A DNA stretch of 64,000 bases from Mesostigma viride (lineage: Eukaryota; Streptophyta; Mesostigmatophyceae; Mesostigmatales; Mesostigmataceae): contig RPFO01000034.1 in the NCBI GenBank assembly GCA_009746045.1, positions 3,763,681 to 3,827,680 on the forward strand, written 5' to 3'. The notes below the pieces were generated by a model. The model made no database searches, was not told where the DNA came from, and was given only the letters and a program-made list of their open reading frames with translations. The translations under genes and the position numbers were made by a program. Shown one piece after another: positions 24,343 to 64,000 of this stretch; within the stretch, counting starts at the first letter, position 1; each line of letters begins with the position of its first letter.

Positions 24343-24569
24343 ACTAGTGGGGGGGCCAAGGCCCCCCACTTTTTCGGACGCACTACGCCACCAGGGGCCC
24401 TGAGGCCCCCGCCGAAAGCTTCGACCCGCCGGGTTGAGCCCGCCGACCGGCCCGGCCCCTACTCCGGGGGGCGAACGCTCGGCGGCCTTCCTTTGGGGGC
24501 TTCCCATCGCGCGCGCTCGCGCCGGCCTGCCGCACCGTCGATCCCACGCTCCGTCCCTCACGTGCACGT
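24343..24569 (+). repeat. GC-rich direct repeat 'a', copy 4
   Basis: Hairpin at 24347-24369; separates macro-units 3 and 4. Confidence 0.85.
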
Positions 24570-39449: not shown

Positions 39450-39589
39450 CGCGGCCTGCGACCGCGCAATCGACAAGCACCGTGAACGCGATCGCGAGTG
39501 GGCAGGCGAGGTCAGCAAACGCATGCCAGAGGGGGCCATGGTACCTTGCGCGCCATGCAATAACGCTAGTGTGGCGGAAGGCTGCCTAC

Positions 39590-40310: not shown

Positions 40311-40362
40311 GAGCGCGCTGGCAACGGCTAGCAAGGGAAGTGGAAGAGTCACCGCTGCAAGC

Positions 40363-43300
40363 TCAAAGACCCACCGCTATCGCGTCGCGCTCCTCCATCG
40401 TGAAATCCGGAGGGCATTTCGCTCCCACGGGCACGTGCCCGATTTCAGGGCCCGATCGGATATCCGCGTACGAGTGGTCCGAGTCGTCATCGTCCTGCAA
40501 GGGAAAAATCGCACGACACGCAACCGCATCGAACGGCGATCGGCTCAGCGTCCCTGGACGCGTGGCGCGCGCAGCAAAGGTAGGCGGAGGTAGGAAACGC
40601 GCGTCAAGAAAGACAGCGGCACCGGGAAACGTACGTAGGGGTAGTCGTCGAATTGACCCACGCAGTCGCGAAAGTCCTCGAGGGCGGCGCCCAGCCCGGA
40701 GTCGTTGTCCTGTGAGGGTCGGCAAGCGATCGCGGAGGCGAATGTGAGCAACAAAAAGGAGGACGAGTGGACGCGGAACAGGGCGCTAGCACGCGAGATG
40801 GGCCAGCAGCACTCACCTCCTCGCAAAAGTCGTCGGGCGCCGACGGCGCGTCGCAGCGGTCGTCGTCAAGCGGGTCGCCGTACTCGTCCAGCCCCTGAGC
40901 GCCAAAACAACGCGGCACGCACACGGCCACGCACGAGGTCACACGCGCACGAGATGCGTCAGCAGCGGGCGCGCACGCTCGGTGCAGCCAAGGGAGGCTT
41001 TCATCTCGTGACGACGGCGGCGGCATATGCTTACCATATCCTCACAGTCAGCATATGCTTACCATATCCTCACAGTCGCCTAGGTCGGGCACGCCCTCGT
41101 TTTCGTCGCTGTCGCCACCCTCGTACAAAAGCAGCTCGGGCTCCTCAGGCTCGCCGTCGGACATCAAGCCGTCCTGCCGCAGGATGTCGCGATCGTGTTC
41201 GCCGTCGCTCTCCAGCATGAAGTCCGCCCACAGTGGCTCCTCGACGACCTGCCTCCACCGCCTCTTGGCCGCGTCATCGGCGCACGCCTGGTCGGCCTCC
41301 GCGCACGCCTCGTCGTCCCCGAGCTCCCACGTGTCCTCGTCGTCGGGGTTGTCGTACTCGTTGTCCTGGGGCTCGCCGCTCATCGGGTCCGGCAGCTCCC
41401 AGTCGTCGGATGCCTGTGCGCGGCGCCGGCCTCGCTGGCGCCTCCGGATGCGCGCCTTGACGCGGTCCTCCGCCTTGTTGCGCATGTTGATGCCCGCGCC
41501 CTGCAAGATCGTCCAGTTGACGATGTTCCTGCTGTAGCCGACGCCGTCGAACTCGTAGCCGAACAAGCCCCGGATGTGCCCCCTCGCGCCCACGCGCGTG
41601 AGCGCCGTGTAAAGCTGGCCGTGCGCGAACACGTCGTGCTTGAGCCAGAGGCCGACGCGTTCCAGCGTCTGCCCCTGGCACTTGTTGATCGTGACCGCAT
41701 ACGCCAGCTGCGCGACGACCATACAAACGCGCGGACGTAAGCAAGCAAGACATCGAGGAAAGCGAGGGAGCATTCAGCCAAGGCCACCGCAAGTCATACG
41801 ATCGCAAGGCGCGAGCCGACATCGCAAGCAACGACACCGCATGGCGCTCACCCCGCCCCTCCCTGCGCGCGCCCACGTACCTTGAAAGGGTAGGCCATCC
41901 TGAGGATCTTGAACTTGTCGGCGTCGATGCTGAACGCGATCCGCGGGATCGCGTGCAGCTCCCCGTCCGGCGTCTTCACGAGGAACGCGCCGTCTTGCTC
42001 GTCTACGAGCTCGACGCGCGTCCCATTCTGCAACCTGTCCTTGTGGGACAGGTTGCGCGTGATCATGGCCACGGCGCCCACCTTCCACTTGAACTCGTGG
42101 TCGGGGACGCCGTCTTGACGCGCGCAGTTGAGGGTCCTCATGGAGACCCTCTCCCCCGACTTGGCGACGCGGTCGTGGCTGAACGTGCTGCGCTCCTGGT
42201 TCTCCAGCTTGGCCAGGACAGCCGCGTTGATGTCGTCGCACGCCTTGTTGGTCACCGCGACGATCGAGGACCGCATGCACGCGTTCGCGTCGTTGACGTT
42301 GGGGAACGTGTGCGCGATCAGCTCGTCCTCGTCCTTGACCGGCTGCACCATGCGCAGCGGGATCATCGCCACCTCCTGGTGCGTGCGGTCGTCGATCACC
42401 GCCTCGTACGCGACGTTGTCCATGCCGACGTCGGCGACAAACTGCGCGTACTCCGGGTCCTCGCGCGCGCGGTAGTTGAACTCGAGCGGCAGCCGGTGCA
42501 CGCCCACCCACTGCGGCGACCGCACCGCGCTGGCGTCAGCCGTCGCCAGCTCGCTGGCGCCCTTGACGACGGGCGCCACCTGCCGGAAGTCGCCGGCGAA
42601 GATGACGACCTTGCCGCCGAACGGCTCCTTGACAAAGGTGAGCTCGACCAGCAGCTCGTGCAAGAGATGGATCAGCTCCACGTTCATCATGCCGATCTCG
42701 TCGACGACGAGCGCGTGCGCCTCCAACAGCGTGCGCCCCCTGGCGGAGTTGCGCGTCACGCGGCAGCCGTACTCGAGGTCGAGCTCGAGCGGGAACCCGC
42801 ACGCGTGATGCGACGTGTGGCCGCCCCACATCTGCAGCGACGCGACGCCCGTGAACGCCATCGGCACCACCTTGAAGCCGTCGCGCGCGGACTGCTGCAT
42901 CGCCGCGTTGATGACCATGGTCTTGCCCGTGCCCGCGGGCCCGTCCACGAACAGCCGGCGGTCCGGGCTGAGCCCCTTGATCGCCAGCAGCAAGGTCTCG
43001 TACGCCTCGCGCTGCACGAGAGAGAACTTGCTCAGGTCGGGCGCGAGGATGTTCGCGTCGTCGTCGTCGTCGTGCTTGCGCTTGCGCCGGCACACGTCCT
43101 CGCCCCTGTCGCGGCGGCACTTGAGCACGGGCTCCAGCTCCCAGACGTCGTAGCCGTAGGCCGACAGCCGCTTGTCCAGGTAGGCGAGCGTGCGCGCGAG
43201 CGCGGCCTCGCGGTCCTCGAGCGTGATGGGCTGCTTGGCTCTGCGGCCCACCCCGCCGTGCACGTCCTCGTACGCGTAGAACAGGTGGTCCTTCATCATC

Positions 43301-43523
43301 TCCTCCTTGAACCGCCACAGCGCGCTCATCGTGCTCAGCTTCTGCAGCACGAGGATGACGAACAGCCGCCGCATCGCGTACGGCGTCTCCAGCCGGCGCG
43401 CGGCGATGCGCATGCTCTCCACCGCCGCGTCGTCGTCCTCGAGCAGGCCCAGCCGCCGGCACGCCATCTCGTTACTGAGCAACACGCCGCCCACGGTGCG
43501 CAGCTCCTCGAACGAGTGCGCGG
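40363..43523 (-). pseudogene. Second, truncated copy of the Helitron helicase exons (probable unmerged contig overlap)
   Basis: Exons 43523-41881, 41707-41063, 40894-40817, 40709-40635 and 40494-40363 repeat 47761-44603 with only a few differences (offset 4238-4240). The 5' part is cut by the N run at 43524, within AHSFEELRTV. This copy keeps the full reading frame in the 41707-41063 exon ([13 protein letters not shown]), where the other copy has lost a base near 45745. It should not be counted as a second gene until the gap is resolved. Confidence 0.7.
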
Positions 43524-43647
43524 NNNNNNNNNNNNNNNNNNNNNNNNNNNNNNNNNNNNNNNNNNNNNNNNNNNNNNNNNNNNNNNNNNNNNNNNNNNNN
43601 NNNNNNNNNNNNNNNNNNNNNNNNNNNNNNNNNNNNNNNNNNNNNNN
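43524..43647. other. Assembly gap (124 N)
   Basis: A run of unknown bases. The left side ends inside the helicase exon. The right side starts inside the USP-like start region (mirror of 39405), so the two sides are not neighbours in any one gene. Confidence 0.99.
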
Positions 43648-43689
43648 ATCGTTGTTCTCCAACGTCCTCCTCCTCGTCCGACGAAAACA
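43648..43689 (-). pseudogene. Stub of the USP-like gene start, cut by the gap
   Basis: Encodes MVFSSDEEEDVG, identical to the start at 39449, then runs into the N run. One inserted base (GTTGTT for GTTGT) shifts its frame relative to 39405-39415. Confidence 0.7.
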
Positions 43690-43829
43690 CCATCGCGGCC
43701 TGCGACCGCGCAATCGACAAGCACCGTGAACGCGATCGCGAGTGGGCAGGCGAGGTCAGCAAACGCATGCCAGAGGGGGCCATGGTACCTTGCGCGCCAT
43801 GCAATAACGCTAGTGTGGCGGAAGGCTGC

Positions 43830-44550
43830 CTACCGTTAGGGGTGGGCCAGCTTGGATTGGGCTGAAACTTGGGAGCAGCCTTGCCCCACACTAGTCCATC
43901 ATGTGGGCAAAGTGGGGCCTTGCAGGTCAATCGTTTGGGGATGGCACATTGCCAGGGGGTGCCATGGTCCTTGCGGCGCTAGCACGTGCCCATCCTTAGG
44001 GTGGCCATGGTCCTAAAATATGAAAACGAGCTTGGATTGGGCTGAAACTTGGGAGGAGGCATGCCCCACACTAGTCCATCATGTGTGCAAAGTGGGGGCT
44101 CGCAGGTCCATCGTTTGGGGGGGTGGACATGGCCAGGCGGTGCCATGGTGCCTAGCGCGCGCTAGCACGTGCCCACCCTTAGGGTGAGCCATGGTCCTAA
44201 AACATGCAAACGAGCTTGGATTGGGCTGAAACTTGGGAGGAGGCTTCCCCCATACTAGTCCATCATGTGTGCAAAGTGGGGGCTCGCAGGTCTATCGTTT
44301 GGGGGGGTGGACATGGCCAGGGGGTGCGATGGTCCCTAGCGCGCGCTAGCACGTGCCCACCCTTAGAGGTGGGCCAGGGTCCTAAAATATGAAAACGAGC
44401 TTGGATTGGCTGAAACTTGGGAGGAGGCATGCCCCACACTAGTCCATCATGTGTGCAAAGTGGGGGCTCGCAGGTCCATCGTTTGGGGGGGTGGACATGG
44501 CCAGGCGGTGCCATGGTGCCTCGCGCGCGCTAGCACGTGCCCTGCACCGA
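43830..44550 (+). repeat. 183-bp satellite, four copies (second copy of the block)
   Basis: Counterpart of 39590-40310, with scattered single-base differences. Confidence 0.9.
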
Positions 44551-44602
44551 GAGCGCGCTGGCAACGGCTAGCAAGGGAAGTGGAAGAGTCACCGCTGCAA
44601 GC

Positions 44603-45946
44603 TCAAAGACCCACCGCTATCGCGTCGCGCTCCTCCATCGTGAAATCCGGAGGGCATTTCGCTCCCACGGGCACGTGCCCGATTTCAGGGCCCGATCGGA
44701 TATCCGCGTACGAGTGGTCCGAGTCGTCATCGTCCTGCAAGGGAAAAATCGCACGACACGCAACCGCATCGAACGGCGATCGGCTCAGCGTCCCTGGACG
44801 CGTGGCGCGCGCAGCAAAGGTAGGCGGAGGTAGGAAACGCGCGTCAAGAAAGACAGCGGCACCGGGAAACGTACGTAGGGGTAGTCGTCGAATTGACCCA
44901 CGCAGTCGCGAAAGTCCTCGAGGGCGGCGCCCAGCCCGGAGTCGTTGTCCTGTGAGGGTCGGCAAGCGATCGCGGAGGCGAATGTGAGCAACAAAAAGGA
45001 GGACGAGTGGACGCGGAACAGGGCGCTAGCACGCGAGATGGGCCAGCAGCACTCACCTCCTCGCAAAAGTCGTCGGGCGCCGACGGCGCGTCGCAGCGGT
45101 CGTCGTCAAGCGGGTCGCCGTACTCGTCCAGCCCCTGAGCGCCAAAACAACGCGGCACGCACACGGCCACGCACGAGGTCACACGCGCACGAGATGCGTC
45201 AGCAGCGGGCGCGCACGCTCGGTGCAGCCAAGGGAGGCTTTCATCTCGTGACGACGGCGGCGGCATATGCTTACCATATCCTCACAGTCAGCATATGCTT
45301 ACCATATCCTCACAGTCACCTAGGTCGGGCACGCCCTCGTTTTCGTCGCTGTCGCCACCCTCGTACAAAAGCAGCTCGGGCTCCTCAGGCTCGCCGTCGG
45401 ACATCAAGCCGTCCTGCCGCAGGATGTCGCGATCGTGTTCGCCGTCGCTCTCCAGCATGAAGTCCGCCCACAGTGGCTCCTCGACGACCTGCCTCCACCG
45501 CCTCTTGGCCGCGTCATCGGCGCACGCCTGGTCGGCCTCCGCGCACGCCTCGTCGTCCCCGAGCTCCCACGTGTCCTCGTCGTCGGGGTTGTCGTACTCG
45601 TTGTCCTGGGGCTCGCCGCTCATCGGGTCCGGCAGCTCCCAGTCGTCGGATGCCTGTGCGCGGCGCCGGCCTCGCTGGCGCCTCCGGATGCGCGCCTTGA
45701 CGCGGTCCTCCGCCTTGTTGCGCATGTTGATGCCCGCGCCCTGCAGATCGTCCAGTTGACGATGTTCCTGCTGTAGCCGACGCCGTCGAACTCGTAGCCG
45801 AACAAGCCCCGGATGTGCCCCCTCGCGCCCACGCGCGTGAGCGCCGTGTAAAGCTGGCCGTGCGCGAACACGTCGTGCTTGAGCCAGAGGCCGACGCGTT
45901 CCAGCGTCTGCCCCTGGCACTTGTTGATCGTGACCGCATACGCCAG
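44603..45946 (-). CDS. Helitron helicase C-terminal exons with acidic tail
   Basis: Four exons. The first (45946-45303) begins [19 protein letters not shown], helicase motif V, with Cys where most Helitrons have Ser. Then comes [20 protein letters not shown], motif VI. A missing A near 45745 breaks the frame after NIVNWTI; the sister copy has it. A long acidic region follows ([19 protein letters not shown] and similar). Exons 45134-45057, 44949-44875 and 44734-44603 add more acidic sequence (DPLDDDRCD, DDDDSDHSYAD) and end IAVGL. At the first exon's 3' end a 28-bp direct duplication repeats the donor. Confidence 0.85.
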
Positions 45947-46118
45947 CTGCGCGACGACCATACAAACGCGCGGACGTAAGCAAGCAAGACATCGAGGAAA
46001 GCGAGGGAGCATTCAGCCAAGGCCACCGCAAGTCATACGATCGCAAGGCGCGAGCCGACACGCAAGCAACGACACCGCATGGCGCTCACCCCGCCCCTCC
46101 CTGCGCGCGCCCACGTAC

Positions 46119-47894
46119 CTTGAAAGGGTAGGCCATCCTGAGGATCTTGAACTTGTCGGCGTCGATGCTGAACGCGATCCGCGGGATCGCGTGCAGCTCC
46201 CCGTCCGGCGTCTTCACGAGGAACGCGCCGTCTTGCTCGTCTACGAGCTCGACGCGCGTCCCATTCTGCAACCTGTCCTTGTGGGACAGGTTGCGCGTGA
46301 TCATGGCCACGGCGCCCACCTTCCACTTGAACTCGTGGTCGGGGACGCCGTCTTGACGCGCGCAGTTGAGGGTCCTCATGGAGACCCTCTCCCCCGACTT
46401 GGCGACGCGGTCGTGGCTGAACGTGCTGCGCTCCTGGTTCTCCAGCTTGGCCAGGACAGCCGCGTTGATGTCGTCGCACGCCTTGTTGGTCACCGCGACG
46501 ATCGAGGACCGCATGCACGCGTTCGCGTCGTTGACGTTGGGGAACGTGTGCGCGATCAGCTCGTCCTCGTCCTTGACCGGCTGCACCATGCGCAGCGGGA
46601 TCATCGCCACCTCCTGGTGCGTGCGGTCGTCGATCACCGCCTCGTACGCGACGTTGTCCATGCCGACGTCGGCGACAAACTGCGCGTACTCCGGGTCCTC
46701 GCGCGCGCGGTAGTTGAACTCGAGCGGCAGCCGGTGCACGCCCACCCACTGCGGCGACCGCACCGCGCTGGCGTCGGCCGTCGCCAGCTCGCTGGCGCCC
46801 TTGACGACGGGCGCCACCTGCCGGAAGTCGCCGGCGAAGATGACGACCTTGCCGCCGAACGGCTCCTTGACAAAGGTGAGCTCGACCAGCAGCTCGTGCA
46901 AGAGATGGATCAGCTCCACGTTCATCATGCCGATCTCGTCGACGACGAGCGCGTGCGCCTCCAACAGCGTGCGCCCCCTGGCGGAGTTGCGCGTCACGCG
47001 GCAGCCGTACTCGAGGTCGAGCTCGAGCGGGAACCCGCACGCGTGATGCGACGTGTGGCCGCCCCACATCTGCAGCGACGCGACGCCCGTGAACGCCATC
47101 GGCACCACCTTGAAGCCGTCGCGCGCGGACTGCTGCATCGCCGCGTTGATGACCATGGTCTTGCCCGTGCCCGCGGGCCCGTCCACGAACAGCCGGCGGT
47201 CCGGGCTGAGCCCCTTGATCGCCAGCAGCAAGGTCTCGTACGCCTCGCGCTGCACGAGAGAGAACTTGCTCAGGTCGGGCGCGAGGATGTTCGCGTCGTC
47301 GTCGTCGTCGTGCTTGCGCTTGCGCCGGCACACGTCCTCGCCCCTGTCGCGGCGGCACTTGAGCACGGGCTCCAGCTCCCAGACGTCGTAGCCGTAGGCC
47401 GACAGCCGCTTGTCCAGGTAGGCGAGCGTGCGCGCGAGCGCGGCCTCGCGGTCCTCGAGCGTGATGGGCTGCTTGGCTCTGCGGCCCACCCCGCCGTGCA
47501 CGTCCTCGTACGCGTAGAACAGGTGGTCCTTCATCATCTCCTCCTTGAACCGCCACAGCGCGCTCATCGTGCTCAGCTTCTGCAGCACGAGGATGACGAA
47601 CAGCCGCCGCATCGCGTACGGCGTCTCCAGCCGGCGCGCGGCGATGCGCATGCTCTCCACCGCCGCGTCGTCGTCCTCGAGCAGGCCCAGCCGCCGGCAC
47701 GCCATCTCGTTACTGAGCAACACGCCGCCCACGGTGCGCAGCTCCTCGAACGAGTGCGCGGCGCGCTTCTCCAGCAGCACGCGCAGGTAGAAGAGCTCGG
47801 GGTTGCGCAGGTCGGGGTCGTACATGCGCGTGAAGACGCGCGTCACGCGCGGCATGAGCCACCATCGCGCCGTGTGGCCCTCGCACACGATCAC
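46119..47894 (-). CDS. Helitron Pif1-type helicase exon
   Basis: One exon of 592 codons. It opens VIVCEGHTARWWLMPRVTR, then YLRVLLEKRAAHSFEELRTV and LLEDDDAAVES, the segment that links Rep and helicase in Helitrons. Helicase motifs follow in order: Walker A GPAGTGKTM, Walker B VVDEIGMM, motif III FAGDFRQVAPVV, VAVTNKACDDIN, and ITRNLSHKDRLQNGTRVELV. This is the superfamily 1 Pif1-like 5'-3' helicase of Helitrons. An internal KRKHDDDDDAN stretch is an insert before the ATPase core. The exon is open throughout. Confidence 0.93.
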
Positions 47895-48009
47895 CTGCGA
47901 GCGCCAGCACAAGATCGCAGCCGCCGCGGTCGGTTAGCACACGCCCCCTCCCCAAGCACGCTACATCAAACGAATGGAAAACAATGGCGACAATTCGACA
48001 ATGACGCAC

Positions 48010-48057
48010 CTCGTTGTTGACGTCCCTCAACGCGCGCTCGGGAGCTTGCCATTTCAG
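48010..48057 (-). CDS. Helitron 16-codon linker exon
   Basis: Encodes LKWQAPERALRDVNNE between CTGCAG and GTGCGT, phase 0 on both sides, joining the post-Rep exon to the helicase exon. Confidence 0.6.
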
Positions 48058-48129
48058 CTGCAGGACCCCACCGACGCATGAAGCATCCCAATAGCGAAAG
48101 GTGAGAAAAAACGCGCACCAAGACAACCC

Positions 48130-50310
48130 ATGCAATAACGCATGCCAGAGGGGGCCATGGTCCCTTGCGCGCCATGCAATAACGCTAGTGTGGGGGAAGG
48201 CTGCCTACCGTTAGGGGTGGGCCATGGTCCTAAAACATGCAAACGAGCTCGGATTGGCCTGAAACTTGGGAGGAGGCATGCCCCACACTAGTCCATCATG
48301 TGTGCAAAGTGGGGGCTCGCAGGTCTATCGTTTGGGGGGTGGACATGGCCAGGGGGTGCCATGGTCCCTAGCGCGCGCTAGCACGTGCCCACCGTTAGGG
48401 GTGGGCCAGGGTCCTAAAATATGCAAACGAGGTTGGATTGGGCTGAAACTTGGGAGGAGGCATGCCCCACACTAGTCCATCATGTGTGCAAAGTGGGGGC
48501 TCGCAGGTCCATCGTTTGGGGGGGTGGACATGGCCAGGCGGTGCGATGGTCCCTAGCGCGCGCTAGCACGTGCCCACCGTTAGGGGTGGGCCAGGGTCCT
48601 AAAATATGCAAACGAGCTTGGATTGGGCTGAAACTTGGGAGGAGGCATGCCCCACACTAGTCCATCATGTGTGCAAAGTGGGGGCTCGCAGGTCCATCGT
48701 TTGGGGGGGTGGACATGGCCAGGGGTGCCATGGTCCCTAGCGCGCCGACAGCACGTGCCCACCGTTAGGGTGGGCCAGGGTCCTAAAACATGCAAACGAG
48801 CTTGGATTGGCCTGAAACTTGGGAGGAGGCTTCCCCCCCCCTAGTCCATCATGTGGGCAAAGTGGGGGCTCGCAGGTCCATCGTTTGGGGGGGTGGACAT
48901 TGCCAGGGGGTGCCATGGTCCCTACGCGCGCTAGCACGTGCCCACCGTTAGGGGTGGGCCAGGGTCCTAAAATGCAAACGAGCTTGGATTGGGCTGAAAC
49001 TTGGGAGGAGGCTTCCCCCACTAGTCCATCATGTGTGCAAAGTGGGGGCTCGCAGGTCCATCGTTTGGGGGGGTGGACATTGCCAGGGGTGCCATGGTCC
49101 CTACGCGCGCTAGCACGTGCCCACCGTTAGGGGTGGGCCAGGGTCCTAAATATGCAAACGAGCTTGGATTGGGCTGAAACTTGGGAGGAGGCATGCCCCA
49201 CACTAGTCCATCATGTGTGCAAAGTGGGGGCTCGCAGGTCCATCGTTTGGGGGGGTGGACATGGCCAGGGGTGCGATGGTCCCTAGCGCGCGCTAGCACG
49301 TGCCCACCGTTAGAGGGGGCCAGGGTCCTAAAATATGCAAACGAGCTTGGATTGGGCTGAAACTTGGAGGAGGCATGCCCCACACTAGTCCATCATGTGT
49401 GCAAAGTGGGGGCTCGCAGGTCCATCGTTTGGGGGGGTGGCATTGCCAGGGGTGCGATGGTCCCTAGAGCGCTAGCACGTGCCCACCCTTAGAGGTGGGC
49501 CAGGGTCCTAAAATATGCAAACGAGCTTGGATTGGGCTGAAACTTGGGAGGAGGCATGCCCCACACTAGTCCATCATGTGTCAAAGTGGGGGCTCGCAGG
49601 TCCATCGTTTGGGGGGGTGGCATGGCCAGGGGTGCGATGGTCCCTAGAGCACGCTAGCACGTGCCCACCGTTAGAGGTGGGCCAGGGTCCTAAAATATGC
49701 AAACGAGCTTGGATTGGGCTGAAACTTGGGAGGAGGCATGCCCCACACTAGTCCATCATGTGTGCAAAGTGGGGGCTCGCAGGTCCATCGTTTCGGGGGT
49801 GGACATGCCAGGGGGTGCGATGGTCCCTAGCGCGCGCTAGCACGTGCCCACCGTTAGGGGTGGGCCAGGGTCCTAAAATATGCAAACGAGCTTGGATTGG
49901 GCTGAAACTTGGGAGGAGGCTTCCCCCATACTAGTCCATCATGTGTGCAAAGTGGGGGCTCGCAGGTCCATCGTTTCGGCGGGTGGACATTGCCAGGGGT
50001 GCGATGGTCCCTAGCGCGCGCTAGCACGTGCCCACCGTTAGGGGTGGGCCAGGGTCCTAAAATATGCAAACGAGCTTGGATTGGGCTGAAACTTGGGAGG
50101 AGGCTTCCCCCATACTAGTCCATCATGTGTGCAAAGTGGGGGCTCGCAGGTCCATCGTTTGGGGGGGTGGACATTGCCAGGGGTTGCCATGGTCCCTAGC
50201 GCGCGCGAGCATGTGCCCACCGTTAGAGGTGGGCCAGGGTCCTAAAATACAAACGAGCTTGGATTGGGCTGAAACTTGGGAGGAGGCATGCCCCACACTA
50301 GTCCATCATC
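48130..50310 (+). repeat. 183-bp satellite, twelve copies, inside a Helitron intron
   Basis: AACGAGCTTGGATTGGGCTG recurs every 180-186 bases from 48241 to 50251. The block fills almost the whole intron between 50351 and 48057. It is the same satellite as in the Helitron's 3' flank. Confidence 0.95.
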
Positions 50311-50847: not shown

Positions 50848-52254
50848 CCGGCGCCCCCGCAGGTACTCGTCGGCCTCGTCGCACTCGCCCAGCTTGATCT
50901 CCGCGTACTCCTGCCCCTTGTTTATATATTTGTTCAGGTAGAAGACGACGTGCGTGTGCGAGGTCACCACAAAGTTGATGTGGGCCTCGAACCGCAACGT
51001 GGCCCATGCGTTGTACGGGACGATCCACTGGTTCAGCCTGCACGTGTGCCGTCTCCGCGGGTGGATGAAGCCCCGCACGTCTTCGAACGTGCGCTTGGCG
51101 TAGGGCTCGGGGAAGCGCTTGGCGCACTTGTACGTGCGCGGCTGCCACGGGGTGAACGGCTCGTCGTCTGAGGACGAGGAGGCCGAGTCGAGGTCGAACG
51201 AGTCGCGCGCGGCCGCGATGTCCGCCGCGCGCAGCGCTTTCCGCGGGGGCATCGCCACCTCGTGCCGCCGGTTCTTCATGCACTTGGCGCCAGCGGTGTG
51301 GTTGTGGACCATGTGCTGGAGCACGAGCTCGCGCAGACGCCCCGCCGCGACGTCCTCTGGCGGCAGCTCCGCCCACGCGAGCTCGTCGATGCGCCCGTTG
51401 GCGGTGGTCGGGTGGAAGGGCTCGGGGAGCCGGAAGATGACGTGCGCGTGGGGCAGCCCGCGCGTCTGGTACTCGATCACATAGATCAAGTACAGCGGCT
51501 TGGCCCCCATCACGCCGTCCTCGATGCCCTTGATGAACGCGGCCAGCCGGATGTGAAACGAGCGGTTGGCAAACTCGGGGTGTTGGTACACGTCGGTTCC
51601 CGGCGGCAGGTTGTCCTGGATTTCTGGCCACATCGGATTGCACGTGAACGTGGCGAACACCGAGGGGGCCCCGTCCTCGGCGATGGCGGCGATGTTGTTC
51701 TGGATGTTGTGCAGCACGAAGCGGTTGGCCATCCCTGAGCCGGACGGCAGCTGCATGGTGAGCCCCGAGCGCAGCTCATCCGGCAGGTCCTTGGCGTTCG
51801 CCTTGGTGAACTTCCTCCAGTCCTTCTCGCTGTACACCCCCATCGTCTTCAGGTCGTCCAATACCTTGAGGTTGTCGTTCAGCTCGGCCCACGTCGCCAA
51901 CCGCCTCTGGTGCTTCTCACGCTGCTTCCCCCGCAGGAAGGTGATGGTCTGGTCCTCCTTGGCGGAGTTCCCGTGCAGCGGGTATAGCTGCCCGAAAGCG
52001 CCCTTGTTCTTGAGCCGCCACTCGGAGAACAGCCGGCACTTGATCTCGTCCTGCAGCTTGACCTCCTGCTTGCGCTTGCTCTTCCCATCGTAGCTGTACG
52101 ACCACCCCCCTTGCCCTCCGAATGGATGGCCGGGAAAGCCAGCGCCATGTAGTCCTTGCTCCCCAGCGGCAGCTCTTTCGTGATACGCTGGCCCTCCGGC
52201 CCACGTTCCACTACATCGACACGAAAGTGGCCCGGCTGCGCGTTCCTTTGTCCG
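50848..52254 (-). CDS. Helitron Rep (HUH endonuclease) exon, one frameshift
   Basis: About 469 codons. The start, GQRNAQPGHFRVDVVERGPE and DYMALAFPAIHSEGKGG, resembles the Helitron segment ending in a FP..F..GGW motif. Then come FATFTCNPMWPEI, the HUH motif in EYQTRGLPHAHVIFRLPEP, and the two-tyrosine motif VFYLNKYINKG. These are the nicking-joining residues of Helitron Rep. At 52105-52110 the run of six C (G on the coding strand) would need one more base to link KGG to WSYSYDGKSKRK. The exon length then fits phase 0. Either the copy is broken here or the run is miscalled. Confidence 0.92.
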
Positions 52255-53413: not shown

Positions 53414-54235
53414 TTGCATGCAAGTATTTCCTTACTCATTACTTCCTAACAACTGAAACTCACAATACAGCTATGCCATGCAGGACACAATGTCGGTACC
53501 GCTTTTTGCAAGCGGCAGCCATAGCGACCAAACACTTCCATGCAAACTACCATGTTCATCATTCATTGAGTGGCAATCCTTTGTAAACACATGCACCATC
53601 GGTCATGCCCACTATGACTTCATGTTGACAATGTTTTGTACATGACTCGATAGTGCCCTTGTGCGCGACCGTGGGGCGTGGCAGGCTAGCCCTGTCCATT
53701 CGTGGGTGTGGTGGGGAGCTGCCATGCATGCGTGGGTTTAGGGGGTGGCTGGAATGTGTGCCTAGGTTCGTGAGGTGGCTGCCATGCGTGCGTGGGTGTG
53801 GGGGGTGGCTGGCATGCACGTGCATGTGGGGGGTGGCTGGCATCCATGCGTGGGTTTGTGGGGTGGCTGCCATGCATGCGAGAGTGTGGGGGGGAGCTGC
53901 CATGCATGCATGTGGGGCGGGGCGGGCTGGCATGCGTGCGTGGGTGTGGGGGGGGCCCGCATGTGACGGGGATGGCTGGCATGCATAAGTGGGTTTGTGG
54001 GGGGGCTGCCATGCATGCGTGCATGTAGGGGCGGGGGGGCAAGCGTGTGTGGGTTTGCGGGGGGGCTGGCATGCATGCGTGGCTGTGGGGGGGGGCTGAC
54101 ATGCGTGCGTGGGTGTGGGGTTGGCTGGAATGCGTGCGTGGGTTTGGGAGGGGCTGGCATGCGTGCGTGGGTTTGGGGGGTGGCTGGCATGCATGCGTGG
54201 GTGTGGGGGGGGATGGCAGGAATGCATGCATGGCT
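53414..54235 (+). mobile_element. Macro-unit fragment inserted into the 40-bp array
   Basis: Starts TTGCATGCAAGTATTTCC, as in the macro-units, and runs through a G-rich minisatellite (53695-54232). It sits between 40-bp repeat units on both sides. Confidence 0.75.
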
Positions 54236-54341
54236 CCCGCAACATAAGTAAGGGCGGTGTAGAAAATGATGCATGCGGCAGAGCACCGTCGCTAGCGACA
54301 AACGCAGCCAAGGGTGGGGCCCGTACCCATGTCCCACCCAC

Positions 54342-54539
54342 CTGGGCAGCAGGAAGATCTCTGGCGCGTGCACCTCCGGCGAGAACTGTCCCGCCACCTC
54401 TACGGACGCCTGCCGCTGCTCCAACTCCTCGGTCGCCTGCCGTGCGAACTGCTGCAGCAACGGGTTGTAGGTGAGCAGGTACTCCTCCAGAAGGTCCAGC
54501 AGCTTCCGCAGGTTGGGGTCTCGCTCTTTCACCTCGCAC
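54342..54539 (-). CDS. Helitron N-terminal exon C
   Basis: 66 codons: CEVKERDPNLRKLLDLLEEY and LLTYNPLLQQFARQATEELE. It matches the Helitron segment after the zinc finger that ends with a leucine-rich helix and a NP...FR-like motif. Ends SPEVHAPEIFLLP at donor GTGGGT. Confidence 0.75.
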
Positions 54540-54672
54540 CTGCGGAGCAGGAAGCCACAAAGGTACGCGCATCCGCACTCACAGACACCGTCAGCCGCCT
54601 CACCCCAAAGAATCACCCCATCACACATCACAACGTGCACTCGCTAAAACCGGCAACTGCCGCACCCCTCAC

Positions 54673-54897
54673 CGTTTCAACACGTCCTCCTGCGCCTCGT
54701 CCTTTCCCGGCTTGTCCAGCAGGAAGAAGAAGTCGTTGTTGACGTGCACGCCGTCCCGGATGATCGGCTTGATGCGCTCGACGGTCTGGCCGTGCAGCTC
54801 GAGCACGCAGGCCCCCTTGTTCTTGACCGAATCCCCGATGCGCCCGCTCGCTACGACGCGTGCCACGGCGAAAAACTGGTTGATCATCCGCCCATAC
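54673..54897 (-). CDS. Helitron N-terminal exon B
   Basis: 75 codons: MINQFFAVARVVASGRIGDS, GACVLELHGQTVERI and NNDFFFLLDKPGKDEAQEDV. Corresponds to the N....FAF.S, F.I.GQ..H.I and Y..D segments of Helitron N-termini. Phase 2 on both borders; joins exons 55867-55440 and 54539-54342 in frame. Confidence 0.75.
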
Positions 54898-54974
54898 CTG
54901 ATGCATGTTCAAAAATACATTGGCGGGGACGATGTGTCAGGGTGCAATACAAGGCACAACCCACTTCAAGGGGG

Positions 54975-55200
54975 TTGGCTGGCATGCGTGCGTGGGCATG
55001 GGGATGGCTGCCATGCGTGCGTGGGTGTCAGGGGTGGCTGGCATGCGTACGTTGGTGAGGGGTGTGGCTGGCATGCATAAGTGGGCCCGCGGTGCCCCTG
55101 ATTGCTGTCTGGCCCCTAATTATGTGGATGTGGCTGGCTGCCTGCCCTCCTGTTTGCCTCATCCCATGCCCCAAGGCTCGTAGCTCAAGCCTCAATCGTG
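54975..55200 (+). repeat. Macro-unit fragment in a Helitron intron
   Basis: Three to four minisatellite units (54975-55082) followed by the GGGCCCGCGGTGCCCCTGAT segment seen after every macro-unit array. Confidence 0.85.
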
Positions 55201-55204
55201 GTGA

Positions 55205-55360
55205 AAGAACTTCAGCATAGCTTCCACACCACAAGGGTGGTGAAGAAAATTTGAGCATAGCTTCCGCACCAGCAAACATGGTGAAAAAAATTCAGCATAG
55301 CTTCCGCACTACAAGGGTGGTGAAGAAAATTTGAGCATAGCTCATGCACTATAAGGGCGG
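55205..55360 (+). repeat. Diverged 40-bp repeat units
   Basis: Four units of the AAAATTNNAGCATAGCTTCC type, related to 52376-53412. Confidence 0.75.
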
Positions 55361-55439
55361 ATGACATGCCCGCACGGTCCATGCGTCAATACACACAAAC
55401 ACGTAGTAATTAAGAGCAGTGCTCATGCCAACACCGTAC

Positions 55440-55867
55440 CTGATCCACAGCGCCACGTTCGTCGGGTTGCAGTGGATCTGCCACAGCATCTCCTCCTGGT
55501 GGGTCAGCTCGTTGCGCGCGAGCTCGCGTTCATCCGCGTTCGCCTCAGCCAGCAGCCGCTCACGCCGCCTGCGCTTCTCGATGATGAGATTCAGGTTTGG
55601 CTCCAACACCTTTGCCTTGCCTTTCGAGCAGCAGCGGCTACCCTTGGGCTCCTCCTCCTTGAACATGGGCGCGTGGCACTTGGGGCACTTGCTGCGCTCG
55701 CGGTGCTCATCGAGTGAGTACGGATGCGCGGCGCTCGGGTCGTCGGTCAGCGGTCGCAGCTTGAACGGCCGCATTCTGAAGCCAGCATAGTCGCCTGTGT
55801 CCAAGCAGCGCGAGAGCCGCCGCACCTCCGGGAGCGTCATGCCAAACTTCTTCATCTCGTCGTTTTC
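55440..55867 (-). CDS. Helitron N-terminal zinc-finger exon
   Basis: 143 codons beginning ENDEMKKFGMTLPEVRRLSR. CPKCHAPMFKEEEPKGSRCC and SKGKAKVLEPNL match the Helitron CxxCxA...E......CC..GK.. zinc finger. A strongly basic RRRRERLL segment and a coiled region (ELARNELTHQEEMLWQIH) follow. Phase 0 start, phase 2 end (ATCAG then GTACGG). Confidence 0.8.
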
Positions 55868-56084
55868 CTGCATCGGTAAGGACCAAAACCAGCACGACAT
55901 TGAACAGTACGATAAATGCAACGGACGATACGGCATAATACTGTGTAATATGCCATTATGGTGTGGATCTTCTGAATAGCGCACGGCAGTTCCGTTGATG
56001 GGAACACTTGGCGATGCGCTGCCCATCACCCCAATACCAAACCAAGTGCAATCTAATTTATGGCACACCTACGGAGGGGCTGCC

Positions 56085-56795
56085 ATGCGTGCATGTGGGG
56101 CGGGGCGGGCTGGCATGCGTGCGTGGGTGTGGGGGGGGCTGGCATGCGTACGTGGGTGTGGGGGTGAGCTGCCATGCATCTGTGGGTTTAGGGGGGCGCT
56201 TCCATGCATGAGTGGGTGTGGGGGTGGCTGGCATGCGTGCCTGGGTTTGGGGGTGGGCTGCCATGCGTGCGTGGGTTTAGGGGGGGGCTGGCATGCGTGC
56301 CTGGGTTCGTGGGGGTGGCTGGCATGCGTGCGTGGGTGTGGGGGGTGGCTGGCATGCATGCGTGCGTGTGGGGGGTCGCTGGCATGCATGCGTGGGTTTG
56401 TGGGGGGGCTGGCATGCATACGTGCATGTGGGGTTTGTGGGGTCGCTGGCATGCATACGTGGATTTGTGGAGTGGCTGGCATGCATGCGTGGGTGTCAGG
56501 GTGGCTGGCATGCCTGCGTGGGTTTGTGGGGTGGCTGGCATGCGTGCATGTGGGAGGGGCTGGCATGCGTGCATGTGGGGTTTGTGGGGGGGCGCTGCCA
56601 TGCACGCCTGGGTTCGTGGGCTTTGCATGCGTGTGTGGATTTATGCGAGGGCTGGCATGCGTGCCTGGGTTTGTGGGGTGGCTGGCATGCGTGTGTGGGT
56701 GTGGGTGGGGGCTGGCATGCATAAGTGGGTTTGTAGGGTGGCTGGCATGTGTGTGTGGGTGTGGGTGGTGGCTGGCATGCATAAGTGAGTTAGTA
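56085..56795 (+). repeat. G-rich minisatellite in a Helitron intron
   Basis: About 24 units filling most of the 56823-55868 intron, starting roughly 28 bases after its 5' splice site. Confidence 0.92.
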
Positions 56796-56823
56796 GGTGT
56801 GCCATAACGTCAGAAAAACTCAC

Positions 56824-57279
56824 CCTCTTGTTCTTCTGTCGTTGCGTCTCCTTGGTCACAGGCGCCACATCGTCAACAGGTCGCTTCCCATCACTGCCAG
56901 GTGGTGACAAGCCCGGGCTGCCTGCCTCGACCGGGTCAATGCGCTCCCCGTCGCCGGTGCTCCCCACGTTGTCGTTGGCGTCGGCGCTGTCCGTCCTTGC
57001 ATCGCTGTCGGCATCAGCCCCCTCGCTGTCATCAGCGTCATTGTCGTCCATCCTCGCATCGCTGTCGGCATCAGCCCCCTCGCTGTCATCAGCGTCATTG
57101 TCGTCCATCCTCGCATCCTTGTTGCCTCGTTTGTGCTGTGCACCGCTCGCAATCCTCTGCTTCTTTTGTCGCAAACGACTGTCACGCTTCCACCTTTGCC
57201 GTGCGTCCAGCTTGTCAACAAAAGAGACACCCGCATCACGCCGCCCCGCATTGCCCTGTGCTTGCACACCAGCAGGATC
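56824..57279 (-). CDS. Basic/acidic exon at the Helitron N-terminus
   Basis: 152 codons, phase 0 at both ends. A basic stretch RQRWKRDSRLRQKKQRIASG (likely nuclear localisation or DNA binding) is followed by an acidic part. There DARMDDNDADDSEGADADS is duplicated exactly (57-bp tandem), then partly again as DARTDSADANDN. It ends PVTKETQRQKNKR. Basic N-termini of this kind are common before the zinc finger in Helitron proteins. Confidence 0.65.
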
Positions 57280-57450: not shown

Positions 57451-60400
57451 CGGTGACTCGCGAATGATCCCGGGACCTGCAGGTTGCACCCTCGCGTTGA
57501 TCATGTCCAACACAGTTTTTCCCTGGAATGAAATGCATCAACGACATTGAGCTTGACGGGATTAATACACAGCAGCAGCAACAATCACAATACCAGGAAA
57601 AGAAGCGAAATTGACAGGTGCAGAGGATGGATAAGCAACTCACCAGGGTCCGACGTTGCTCGTCAGTGAAATCATCCCGACGTCGAATCTCGTTCACCAA
57701 CGACTGCAGGTATTCGATCTGTTCCTCAACCGAGTGTACATCGCCACGACAAAATGCCTCCGCCGCGCGCACGTAGGCCAATGTCGCACCGGGTTCGCAC
57801 GCAACATCCTGCAAAAGACAATGAACGCCCATTAATGAAAAATCAACAAAGTTTAATCCAATATACGTTGTTACCCTTTGGAGAAACAACAAATATAAAG
57901 ACCACACGTGGTAAACAAATATGGCCACACCTCAGCATTGCCGTTTTGTCTCCCATGCACCGAAGACTGACGCCCCTGTCGCCGGTTCACCATCTTCTGC
58001 AACGTCCTCACCTGCAAGCATGAAGGCCATAAATAGGGAATCAATTGCATAGGTGTCATCTTCACACGAAATAAAGCAACAACAAAAGACAGGAAGATCC
58101 AATGCAAATAACAAAAGAAATGTGCGATTGGAGACTGGACTATCCCAGAACTAAAAAAACTGTGATAATACCAGCTTACCGCCATGTCTCGTTGCATGAT
58201 CGTTTCAGGATCACTTGCATGCAACTTCCACCGCCGTACTTCATCCAATAGCGACTCCAGCCGGGCAATCTTCTCTTCCACAGACATCACCGTATCACGA
58301 GAGAAGCTTTTTGCAAGATCCACAAAGTCAACAGCCATTTTGAAATCCCGCGGGTCCACGTCCTGCATCGATACACGACAGAGCAAAAGTGACACATCAA
58401 AATTAATTAGAATCCAACATTCAAGTCCCACGCTCCAACGTAGGTAGCTTCTTGCAAATGTCACACGTGGTTGCTTTTTGCAAGTCCTCTTCCTTTGCAA
58501 AGAAAGGTGTAAAACTCCCACAATAACGTGGCAAATCATGCAGCATCAAAAAAAGGAAATAAAATCACACACAACATGCTGATGCACTCAACAAAGCACA
58601 CACCGCACTATCCAATCATGCATAACAGGACACAGTGCCAGCACAACTAACCACACATGCCGGCGTCCCCCCTCGTGCTGCAACGGGATGCGCAACCTCT
58701 TGTGCTGCCACCACAGCTGGTCGCACACGCAGAGGCACCTTGCCATGTGGCGTGGTCGCTACAGATCCAGACTGTAAGCGCTGCTGTTGTACCTCATCCA
58801 AATCTGACCATTTTCGATTCCAGTAACGCAGTGCGTCCTTCAGCCTTCTCATCTGCACCGAGGAAAGCAACAGGCACAAAACGAGAAACCGTTATTAGCA
58901 TACACCAACATGTATCCAAATGGCACCCACCGCATGCAGCCATGAAAGAAACATCAAAGTGAGATCAAAGGATGCACACACAACCACTTACTGCTGCATC
59001 GACACTCTCGGCGGGAAATCTTTTCTCCTGTTCCAACGCATTCAACATATGCTGGATGCGCGCCAGCCGTTCCCAGACATTCGCAGCTCCCGTGAAAGCC
59101 GCGTCCACAAACTCTGACGCTGTTTCAAATCGGGTCACATCTACCTGCACACCAACCAGTAGAGCATAACAACACAGCAAAGTGAGGAGGTCACAATTAA
59201 TTAAAGACTGCGAGAGCCTACCAAGATGGACTCACATCCAATCAGAGAGCTATATATATAAAGAACCTTAGCAACGCTAAAATAAAAACACACCATCATC
59301 ACAGCTGATGCACCCATTCGTGGTTCGTCCACCGCCGATCCTGGCTGCAATGCCACCGTCCCATTCGGCGCATGTTCAGGAATGGCCATCAGTGTCGCAC
59401 ACGCAGCCACCCCCACTTGTGTCGGTGCAGTCGGTTGCAGCACCTGGACGTCTCCTTGTGCAGTTTCTGCCACCTGACCTCCACTCCTCTCCATCCAATA
59501 CCGCAACAGCTCCTTCAGCTGTGCGACCTGCAGCTCACCACCGTACAAACCGTACAAATAATATATATCAATCGCATGTTATACATTACACATTTTGTAG
59601 AAAGCAACATCCTGACAATCCAATAACAAAAGCAAGCAGTTACCAATGAAGCATTTCCACGGTGCACGCAACACCACTCACCGCAGGTTCATAGTCCGCA
59701 CCATAGAGCACGTCGCGTCGTCCCTCCACTATCCGCAGGTAATGCTCGACCGTCACCAAGCGCTCCCCCACAGTTCCATCGCATGCCAGGGCAGCTTCCA
59801 GAAACGAGGAAGCACTTTGGAACTTCCTCCCAGCAACCTGCGCTGACACCCAATGACAAAGGAAGGAAAAATAGGGAACCTTAGCCATAGTCCACAGTGG
59901 TCCCTTGCAAAGGTGAAGCAAATCCTACTACCTTCATTGACGTAGTCCAAAACAAACTCACCACCGTTGAAACTGATGCACCCGCTTGTGCAGGGATGCC
60001 CATCGGTGTCGGCCACGTACTAACTTCCGGTTGTGCAGGCACACCCACCGGGGCCGTTGTCATGGTGTCACATCCCTGCCTTTCCATCTGGACGCGCAGT
60101 GTTTCCCAATACCGCAGATTGTTCTGGATGCTAGTAACCTGCCACGAGGCAACCACCATAATGAAGCAGAGCGACCACTCAGTAAAACTCAGAACTAAAA
60201 CTGCATCGCCTTTACTGCACAGATCAAGTTCTCTTGATAAATGATGAACAGTTAATCCTCCTGTGCGGCATTATGTCAAACACCAAGCAATTGCATAATC
60301 ACTGCAGCTCAACTTACCGCCATGCAGTAGTCATCCCATGAAAACTCCGATTTCCGAACGTGCAGTATACCCATCATAAACTGCAGAGTCGCCATGCATT

Positions 60401-61294
60401 GTACAGGATCGCCAACCAATGCGGTTGCAGCTTGGACAAACCCGTGTGCCCAGTACCCAGCGACCTCCGCCTGCACAAAAGGATCGCAAGAAGTTCAAAA
60501 CCACTTATGTGCATTGAGAATGCCAAATAGTATCATCAAAACCAACAAAACAACTCACACTAAAGCAAGGTAAGAAGATGAGTCATCAAGCAACTCACAC
60601 TAAAGCAAGGTAAGAAGATGAGTCATCAAGCAAAAGCGTAACCTACCAACAGCGTTTCCGAAGCGCTCCTTGGCCAAGGCACGACAGGACCCACCCTTGC
60701 CTGCAGCATTAGCATCTGCAAGAGAAAGACAGAGAACAACACACCATCAAGCAACGCTCGATGTTAGTTTTAGCATGCCGCATATGTCACTGACACAAGC
60801 TCAGCAAAGTGACCACGAACACAACCCCATCACACTGCACTCACCGCATAATAAATGTTGTCACTGAACTTGTCTGGCGCCGCGTTCACCAACTCGTCGA
60901 TTTTACCTCGGACAAAGGCCACCCAGGCAGATGGATTCCCAACTAAGCAGTCGGCTTGTTCTACGCACAAGTACGCCCGAGGCCGAGGGTCCCCACCACG
61001 AGCCATAGCGCACGGTGGCAACCCCCCGCCTATGGGATCCCGACGTGGATGCCAAGGAGTTGCAGATGATTGCGCTCTGCTTGCTTGAAGCTCAGGTGCA
61101 GGTGCAAGTGGAACTGCAGCTGCAGGTGAAGCCATCGCGTGACACGGCGATACCAATGGCTGTGGGGACGATGCGGCGCATGGTGATGCTGGTGAACGTG
61201 CAGCGAGGCTTGGGCCTGACCCTCGAGTCGAAGTTGTTGCGACACGTGGCGATCCACATGTGCATGAAGCTTGGGCATCCGATCCACGTGGTGC
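57451..61294 (-). CDS. Six alternating A/B exon pairs encoding a repeated helical module
   Basis: Twelve phase-0 exons. Type A (about 51-61 codons in five; the sixth is the tail of a 150-codon exon): 61294-60845, 60470-60318, 59837-59682, 59144-58992, 58362-58180, 57808-57644. Examples: FETASEFVDAAFTGAANVWE and FQSASSFLEAALACDGTVGE, each followed by an amphipathic helix such as RLARIQHMLNALEQE. Type B (23-78 codons): 60715-60647, 60138-59962, 59527-59294, 58852-58652, 58011-57931, 57522-57451. It begins with a helix (VAQLKELLRYW, VTSIQNNLRYW, MRRLKDALRYW) and often continues with a Pro/Ala/Val-rich linker. Introns are 120-290 bases. I do not recognise the domain. It is predicted helical and repeat-like. 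By continuous phase it lies upstream of the Helitron transposase exons; it could also be a separate or captured gene. Confidence 0.7.
60551..60630. repeat. 40-bp perfect tandem duplication in an intron
   Basis: CAACTCACACTAAAGCAAGG plus TAAGAAGATGAGTCATCAAG occurs twice without change, between the exons at 60715-60647 and 60470-60318. Confidence 0.95.
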
Positions 61295-61967: not shown

Positions 61968-63932
61968 AGCGAAGACATAGCGTAGCAAGGGTCTGCGTTT
62001 CATTTTCTTAGCCGTGCAGGACGCCATCTTCATGGTCCTTCGGGTTTCCCGTGTCAACGTCTGTTGCCAGAGGATCTGTGATGCTTTTTTCTGGAATATA
62101 CTGGGCGGTGAAAGCCCCTGTGGATGCTTGCCTGGTCATGAGTTTAGGGCGTCATTTACTGCTGTACTCGCTGACATTCATGGTGCTTACTGCGTAAGAT
62201 AATCTGCCTTGCTTCGCGCGTGGATTTTCACTGGGCTGAAGAGCGCGTCTGGTAACATGTTTTCGTGGTGTATAAGGTGATCAATCAACCATTTGTTCAT
62301 AGAACTGGTTGTCTCCTTGATAGAAGGTGTGACAGTAGAAGGTGTTTTATATTTCTTCATCAAGCAAGTCAAAAGTAATCTCCACTGGCTTACAACCTGA
62401 ATCTTGCATTGCTGGGTCTGCTGTGTTCCTGTCTCATTGTGCAGGCTATCCCCTTGGTTGACCAACCAGGTGATTTGTGGTGCCAGCGGGGCCATATTGG
62501 TTTTCTTCTCATTTTCCATCCGTGGCAACGGACCGCATGGGCGGGCGGGAGGGCAGAGAGGTCAGGGCAGGCCAGGCCAGGCGAGGCAGGAAAGGCTGCA
62601 AGGGTATGCAGCACAGGTAGGCTGGCAGGCAAGGGCCATGGGGCATGAGCCATGGGGCTTGAGCTACGAGCCTTGCGGCATGGGGTTTGGGGATGGGGCA
62701 AACAGGAGGGCATCCACATGATTAGGGGCCAGACAGCAATCAGGGGCACCGCGGGCCCACTTATGCATGCCAGCCACCCCACCAACCCACGCACGCATGC
62801 CAGCCACCCCCATGCCCACGCACGCATGCCAGCCACATCCCCCCCCCCCACAAACCCACTTATGCATGCCAGCCACCCCCCACACCCACGTACGCATGCC
62901 AGCCACCCCCCACACCCACGCACGCATGGCAGCCACCCCACGAACCCAGGCACGCATGCCAGCCCCCCCCTCAAGCCACGCATGCATGGCAGCCCCCCCC
63001 CACACCCACGCATGCATGCCACTCCCCCCCACACCCACGCACGCATGCCAGCCACCCCCCATACCCACCTACGCCCCCCCCACACCCACGCACGCATGCC
63101 AGCCCCCCCCCTCATGTATGCATGCATGCCAGCCACCCCAGAAACCCACGCTTGGATGCCAGCCCCCCCCACATGCATGCATGCATGCCAGCCCCCCCCC
63201 ACACCCACGCACCCATGTAAGCCCCCCCACACACTCACGCATGCATGCCAGCCACCCCACAAACCCACGCAGGCATGCCAGCCAGCCCCGACACCCAGGT
63301 ACGCATGCCAGCCACCCGCCACACCCACGCACACATGGCAGCCGCCCCACAAACCCATGCACGCATGCCAGCCCCCCCTAAACCCACGCATGCATGGCAG
63401 CTCCCCACCACACCCACGAATGCATGCCAGCCCCCCCCCACACCCACGCACCCATGCCAGCCACCCCACAAACCCACGCATGCATGCCAGCCACCCCCCA
63501 CATGCACGCATGCATGCCAGCCACCCCCCGCATGCACGTGCATGCTAGCCACCCCCCACACCCACGTACGCATGCCAGCCACCCCCCACACCCACGCACG
63601 CACGGCAGCCACCCCCCACACCCACGCACGCATGCCAGCCCGCCCCCCCACCCACGCACGCATGCCAGCCTGCCCCGCCCCACATGCATGCATGGCAGCT
63701 CCCCCCCACACCCTCGCATGCATGGAAGCCCCCCCACAAACCCACGCATGCATGCCAGCCACCCCACAAACCCATGCATGCATGCCAGCCACTCCCACAC
63801 CCACGCACGCATTCCAGCCCGCCCCGCCCCACATGCATGCATGGCAGCTCCCCCCCACACCCTCGCATGCATGGCACCCACCCCACAAACCCACGCATGC
63901 ATGCCAGCCACCCCCCACATGCACGCACGCAT
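61968..63932 (-). mobile_element. Inverted macro-unit fragment inside an intron
   Basis: Reverse complement of macro-unit sequence from the CTACGCTATGTCTTCGCTGC region through the ORF body (62528-62187, keeping the 21-nt segment) and C-rich segment to a minisatellite (62757-63932). It starts abruptly at 61968. The minisatellite runs up to the 5' splice site of the intron at 63934. Confidence 0.85.
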
Positions 63933-63934
63933 AC

Positions 63935-64000
63935 CTCCTCGCACAAGTCTTCCTCCCCTGGCAAAGGTATCTCGCAGTCTCCATCGTACATCGGTTCTCC
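63935..64000 (-). CDS. Partial acidic exon at the right edge
   Basis: The frame MYDGDCEIPLPGEEDLCEE ends at a donor (GAGGAG then GTATGC). It is phase 0 and joins the 61809-61747 exon. The gene start lies outside the window. Confidence 0.4.

Follow-up and report, generated by a model that had tools for sequence, protein, structure and literature searches.

Mesostigma viride is a single-celled streptophyte alga, and one stretch of its genome holds part of a Helitron whose replicase probably has an unusual N-terminal extension. The window that we analysed is 64,000 nucleotides long (contig RPFO01000034.1, positions 3,763,681 to 3,827,680). Its minus strand carries an array of short, alternating exons upstream of the Rep nuclease and PIF1 helicase exons of a Helitron. 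A sequence-only reading had proposed that the array consists of six copies of an A-B exon pair and that it is joined to the replicase. Our analysis suggests that M. viride has a Helitron family in which the replicase seems to carry a long N-terminal extension, made of hydrophobic helices and duplicated helical modules. Judged from the sequence, the hydrophobic head, the array, and the Rep and helicase part (RepHel) probably form one gene architecture.

Association of the array with the Helitron replicase

The exons downstream of the array match Rep (PF14214) and the PIF1 helicase (PF05970). Two features expected of the Helitron superfamily are present, namely, a Rep with HUH and two-tyrosine motifs (LPHAHV and YLNKYINKG; their meaning as Rep hallmarks is given in the portion of PMC4778049 consulted) and a PIF1-type helicase downstream of Rep. 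In the genome searched (439.9 Mb in 2243 contigs), the Rep query gave at least 66 matches, indicating multiple dispersed copies, which are named here by contig. The Rep family of the window comprises 15 loci, 14 of them at 77% identity or more and one an indel-rich copy recognized at the DNA level (C3:0.8-2.1k). The array lies upstream of Rep, on the same strand and 4.6 to 9.2 kb distant, in 13 of these 15 loci, and the proposed link between array and Helitron is borne out by this count. The two Rep loci with no array upstream are C682, which is 2.9 kb from a contig end, and C125, which is broken. Searching with the array itself gave 121 matches, which we sorted manually into 20 clusters; 13 of these have Rep downstream. 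Among the remaining seven, C74 and C1407:121k run out of contig, and C1568, C1457, and C1513:2478k are small pieces. The cluster at C1407:94k has exons E13 to E16 with Rep absent within the 10 kb read, and C1608, the one read among four array clusters that lack E13 to E16, has hydrophobic-head exons and the array, with neither Rep nor helicase matched across 20 kb.

Public gene models and the junction between the array and RepHel (E13 to E14) also bear on the link. All five models (P0001 to P0005) join the hydrophobic head to the RepHel N terminus, and four have array modules in between. P0001 to P0003 combine the head, some modules, and E14 to E16, while P0004 is without the array. The most complete of them, P0005 (1491 amino acids), holds the head, the end of E1 (its last 40 residues), E2 to E10, E12, E13, E14 to E16, and the start of Rep, and it matches the window exons at 78 to 100%. 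Exact matches in 7 to 11 exons assign P0002 to C1513, P0003 to C1448, and P0005 to C3, the last letter for letter in 11 exons. Kyte-Doolittle segments above 1.6 occur near the N terminus of P0001 to P0004. Six stretches were searched for the junction: the E13 donor is in phase 0 in all three copies where the end of E13 was found, and the E14 acceptor is CAG/GA in all five copies with an E14 match. E13 is free of stops in all six copies compared. The five models and the conserved phase-0 junction give good, though indirect, support to the claim that array and replicase belong to the same gene, which would be read as a single transcript in cells.

Coordinates refer to the minus strand, and exon names (E1 to E16 and N1 to N8) count along the gene from 5′ to 3′. 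The 12 array exons lie between 61294 and 57451; all are multiples of three with an open frame, and their AG/GT borders place every array intron in phase 0, as first described. E13 extends the run to 13 consecutive exons of this kind (E1 to E13, 61294-56824). The array does not appear to be the start of the gene, since coding exons seem to continue upstream to about 65730, outside the window. Spliced together, N1 to N6 (N1 to N5 lying in locus L054) give a 942-nucleotide open frame (65730-63935) that is colinear with P0002. The exons near 65730 are hydrophobic, with intron phases of 1, 1, 1, 2, and 0, and arginine-rich and then acidic stretches follow. Farther upstream, homology of the window to one other copy ends near 66020. 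The sequence-only reading missed the hydrophobic, arginine-rich, and acidic part ahead of the array. The features are as follows, with the ratio of nonsynonymous to synonymous substitution rates (dN/dS) where calculated.

63935..64000, minus strand: downstream end of N6, arginine-rich to acidic; the N6 start is found in P0005
61747..61809, minus strand: N7, acidic (GGDSDMGERIDVTGDWDESCC); AG/GT borders, match in P0005
61494..61556, minus strand: N8, putative, basic (RRRRRK); AG/GT borders, absent from P0005, similar stretch in P0002; the least certain exon
60845..61294, minus strand: E1, proline/alanine-rich linker plus a possible A-like segment; dN/dS 0.68, 5′ border uncertain
60647..60715, minus strand: E2, short B-like exon; dN/dS 0.23
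60318..60470, minus strand: E3, A exon of module M2; dN/dS 0.35
59962..60138, minus strand: E4, B exon of M2 (NLRYW) plus variable linker; dN/dS 0.43
59682..59837, minus strand: E5, A exon of M3; dN/dS 0.20
59294..59527, minus strand: E6, B exon of M3 (LLRYW) plus linker; dN/dS 0.59
58992..59144, minus strand: E7, A exon of M4; dN/dS 0.35
58652..58852, minus strand: E8, B exon of M4 (ALRYW) plus fast-evolving linker; dN/dS 0.81
58180..58362, minus strand: E9, A exon of M5; dN/dS 0.46
57931..58011, minus strand: E10, short B exon of M5; dN/dS 0.73
57644..57808, minus strand: E11, A exon of M6; dN/dS 0.17, lowest of the 13 exons
57451..57522, minus strand: E12, short B exon of M6; dN/dS 0.32
56824..57279, minus strand: E13, basic then aspartate/glutamate-rich, joins the array to RepHel; dN/dS 0.45
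55440..55867, minus strand: E14, first RepHel exon, with a cysteine-rich segment (zinc-finger-like, by eye); acceptor as above
54673..54897, minus strand: E15, RepHel N-terminal exon; AG/GT borders
54342..54539, minus strand: E16, RepHel N-terminal exon; AG/GT borders
50848..52254, minus strand: Rep exon, Helitron_like_N, with both Rep motifs; PF14214, 9.4e-24
46119..47894, minus strand: PIF1 helicase exon; PF05970, 2.5e-36

Several further features of the locus were noted. The Rep exon differs by one base, with the frame split, between one group of copies (the window, C481, C682, and C244) and another (C1513, C1424, both C1 copies, and C1448); in the window it is a gap relative to these five. 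Two nearly identical versions of the helicase part (39518-43523 and 43648-48201) flank a run of 124 N (43524-43647); C1513 has one helicase copy, and the doubling in the window is possibly an assembly duplication. The Rep-helicase intron (48200-50310) consists, by eye, of tandem units of roughly 180 bases. GC-rich minisatellites with a unit of about 30 bases, also judged by eye, occupy introns and flanking sequence in either orientation at about 12000-27000, 53700-56800, and 62700-63950. A repeat of about 220 bases or more lies at 11420, 15375, 20278, 24347, and 29078, a spacing of 4 to 5 kb; it recurs at 67132 and 68277 (L054) and shares 91 to 97% identity with sequence lying upstream of the C1513 copy.

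Repeat modules and selection on the array

Profiles of the A+B modules were built from genomic copies and compared by hhalign against 90 column-shuffled controls. Five of the ten pairs among M2 to M6 (M2-M3, 4.9e-6; M2-M4, 5.8e-5; M3-M4, 1.5e-8; M4-M5, 3.6e-5; M5-M6, 1.7e-7) had scores that none of the 90 controls reached, and the other five fell within the controls. Five consecutive pairs, E3 to E12, are chained by homology in this way. The proposed sixth copy, E1-E2, did not hold up: its best score (15.45, against M6) was matched by 6 of 90 shuffles, with a profile of two sequences only. E2 alone aligns to E12 over 13 columns (hhalign E value, 8e-5). With single exons, hhalign E values fell below 0.002 in 4 of 10 A-A and 1 of 10 B-B comparisons, and 0 of 25 A-B comparisons fell below 0.03. 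The RYW motif noted earlier in three B exons is present in E4, E6, and E8, and the short B exons (E2, E10, and E12) are weakly linked to the long ones. A lack of profile similarity among the exons, which had been named as the point at which the idea of a repeat array would fail, was not encountered, the five-pair chain standing above the shuffles.

Modelled alone, the A exon E7 is predicted to form two helices, with a mean predicted local distance difference test (pLDDT) score of 77. No Pfam family scored above its cutoff with the module, and no PDB chain reached an E value under 0.1, the best PDB values in the known-domain searches being 0.96 and 0.19. Protein searches with the array gave 1, 4, and 3 matches, all of them Mesvir1 models and none outside M. 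viride; each search scored about 8000 best-word candidates, so that distant homologues could escape.

Selection was assessed by setting the array of the window beside that of as many as ten further copies, with 5 to 10 copies per exon for pooled Nei-Gojobori dN/dS. C74, which is nearly identical to C381, was left out of the dN/dS calculation. An exon copy was kept if it reached 75% of the length of the window's exon and 60% identity; most of those excluded are truncated where a locus ends. For E2 to E13, all 112 kept exon copies, a number that includes 12 from the window, are in frame and stop-free. Lengths of array exons differ among copies only by multiples of three, E4 varying by 51 nucleotides. 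For E1, five of six copies are in frame; the C3 copy has 449 nucleotides and stops. Pooled dN/dS is below 1 in all 13 exons (0.17 to 0.81). Frame preservation and dN/dS together agree with the earlier statement that the array is under selection, and they rule out chance open frames. The claim rests on these two measures because exon identity is not always above intron identity among copies (E7 to E9).

The duplications appear to be old, as had been supposed, given the divergence among modules and a diverged locus that retains array exons. Six loci have a Rep at 48 to 49% identity, and in the one that was read, C777 (49%), the E1, E3, E7, E9, and E11 profiles match in order ahead of its E14 to E16 (E values of 3e-5, 5e-8, 3e-13, 4e-8, and 1e-4 when two loci were searched). 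With phase 0 shared by every intron of the array, the reading frame can survive the duplication, loss, or skipping of a pair. In C1608, E1-E4-like matches occur twice in tandem, and the two stretches share 74 to 77% DNA identity in two blocks; exon borders there are partly resolved, the first E4 being among those left without borders. Pairs therefore do get added, as the idea of insertion without a break in the frame had anticipated.

Histories of head and core, and the case for one gene

Head and RepHel core differ in their histories, a point that the sequence-only reading had missed. In masked DNA, the window and C1513 are 99.4 to 100% identical over the RepHel half (34.5 to 52.4 kb), introns included, 93 to 100% from 52.4 to 57.0 kb, and 82 to 88% from 57.1 to 66.0 kb. 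Unexpectedly, seven copies (C481, C244, C1513, C1424, C1b, C1448, and C381) have Rep DNA that is 98.8 to 100% identical to the window, and in the same copies the synonymous divergence (dS) of E3 to E9 from the window is 0.17 to 0.28. C3 shows the reverse, with a dS of 0.007 but a Rep with 23 mismatches and 108 gap positions, which are perhaps sequence errors at a contig end. Blocks of near-identity switch inside the array (E1 to E9 in C3, E10 to E12 in C481, and E1 to E3 in C381). The contrast looks like history rather than selection because silent sites and introns take part in it. We take exchange or gene conversion among the copies to be the most likely cause; that the minisatellite introns serve as exchange points is a guess.

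Several observations weigh against a single gene that begins with the head. The gene models omit different exons (E3, most of E6, and E10 in P0002; E10 to E12 in P0003; E11 in P0005), and the joining itself may be an artifact of the annotation pipeline. In the 19 kb upstream of the C1435 Rep (44%), no match to the array is convincing, and E14 to E16 are equally missing. The hydrophobic and arginine-rich exons are weakly constrained (dN/dS of about 0.6 in the one pair compared). The array at C1407:121k has no E7-E9 orthologue though the locus extends further; tblastn gives just paralogue-like matches for E7 and E8 there, and its E7 to E10 were excluded from the exon set. The AlphaFold model of P0001 has a mean pLDDT of 42, too poor for a fold search. 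As to the omitted exons, those in frame that P0002 (E3 and E10) and P0005 (E11) pass over are intact in the matching genomic copies, C1513 and C3, and either exon skipping or annotation error would account for the omissions.

The differing histories of head and core would also fit two separable genes in one Helitron, with the head an accessory protein on its own transcript and RepHel starting at a methionine within E14 or close upstream of it. Of five copies, two (the window and C3) have an in-frame ATG 6 nucleotides before E14; C1513 has one 60 nucleotides before it, in an open frame. Separate accessory open reading frames such as RPA are known from other Helitrons (PMC4067079 and PMC4683698, as far as consulted). 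However, C1513, C1407, and C777 lack the near ATG (C777 has in-frame stops just before E14), and P0001 has VNDEVKKFGTTL where the window has ENDEMKKFGMTL, so that both early methionine positions are lost. The stop-free E13 and its phase-0 donor, in the copies given above, also speak against a separate RepHel start, and we consider the two-gene arrangement unlikely. Another possibility is that an ancestral Helitron captured a host gene whose product had hydrophobic helices and helical repeats, and that the element now carries it as a functionless passenger. Helitrons do capture gene fragments (PMC4778049, in part), and five array clusters (C1608, C1568, C1457, C1513:2478k, and C1407:94k) have no Rep match on record nearby. 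Against this, the kept exons are in frame with a pooled dN/dS below 1, C777 retains array exons, and C1608 itself combines exons of the hydrophobic head with a duplicated array, much as in the Helitron copies; we regard capture without function as improbable. The seven clusters with no Rep downstream could even suggest an unrelated host gene with Helitrons merely nearby, but the same-strand Rep at the distances given above in 13 of 20 clusters and the joint gene models leave this explanation barely credible. Accidental neighborhood is ruled out by repeated co-occurrence, and that explanation is largely refuted.

A proposed replicase arm and comparison with known systems

Under the single-gene reading that we prefer, one long minus-strand Helitron gene would start at about 65730 and encode hydrophobic helices, arginine-rich and acidic stretches, the two-exon modules, and an acidic linker, with phase-0 splicing then leading into the cysteine-rich region, the HUH Rep nuclease, and the PIF1 helicase. 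Each module would combine an A exon (a predicted helical hairpin) with a B exon (a putative third helix, to which the long ones add a variable linker). The hydrophobic head may hold the replicase at a membrane (the inner nuclear membrane is one candidate), and conserved module surfaces on flexible linkers may form a multivalent arm by which replicase molecules, DNA, or host proteins are brought together. The array may thus have the binding or scaffold role first put forward in the sequence-only reading. We offer this model tentatively, as less likely than not, on the basis of hydropathy, the basic stretch, the conserved A exons, and the variable linkers; hydropathy peaks suggest that the head may insert into a membrane. 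The full picture, an integral-membrane replicase with a phase-0 module arm whose heads and near-uniform RepHel core have been recombined among copies, is about as doubtful; one engine, the RepHel core, would in that case travel with a varied set of heads.

Helitron replicases are generally regarded as soluble enzymes of the nucleus whose N terminus binds DNA, in agreement with what is described for Helraiser. If the proposed architecture is correct, a modular hydrophobic head under selection raises the question of where in the cell rolling-circle transposition occurs, whether it is tuned by the number of modules, and why a near-uniform core goes with a variable head. In addition, phase-0 exon pairs duplicated in series within a mobile element are available here as a natural example.

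Among the titles and abstract beginnings listed in our literature searches, no such head is described, and the main texts of both M. viride genome papers contain the word "Helitron" 0 times. Like Helentrons and Helitron2 (PMC4067079 and PMC3627910, in the parts consulted), the elements described here are rolling-circle elements with gained parts. There, however, the AP endonuclease is fused C-terminally and the others (OTU protease, RPA, and Fanzor) are additional open reading frames, whereas here an N-terminal part is spliced in phase 0. Ten open reading frames scanned in the window, covering some of the exons after the helicase, held no Pfam match to AP endonuclease and none of the OTU protease, RPA, or Fanzor domains. 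As with the RPA of plant Helitrons (PMC4683698, in part), an extra protein part is kept with RepHel in some Helitrons of a lineage; RPA is a known single-stranded-DNA-binding protein, whereas the module has no Pfam or PDB match at the cutoffs given above. The closest comparison is with canonical Helitrons and Helraiser (PMC4778049, in the text consulted), with which the M. viride family shares an HUH Rep with the two-tyrosine motif, a PIF1 helicase, and a cysteine-rich segment (judged by eye) before Rep. The Helraiser N terminus is needed for binding of single-stranded DNA, and the word "membrane" has 0 occurrences in that text. Unlike in Helraiser, a hydrophobic head and repeat modules here precede the cysteine-rich region.
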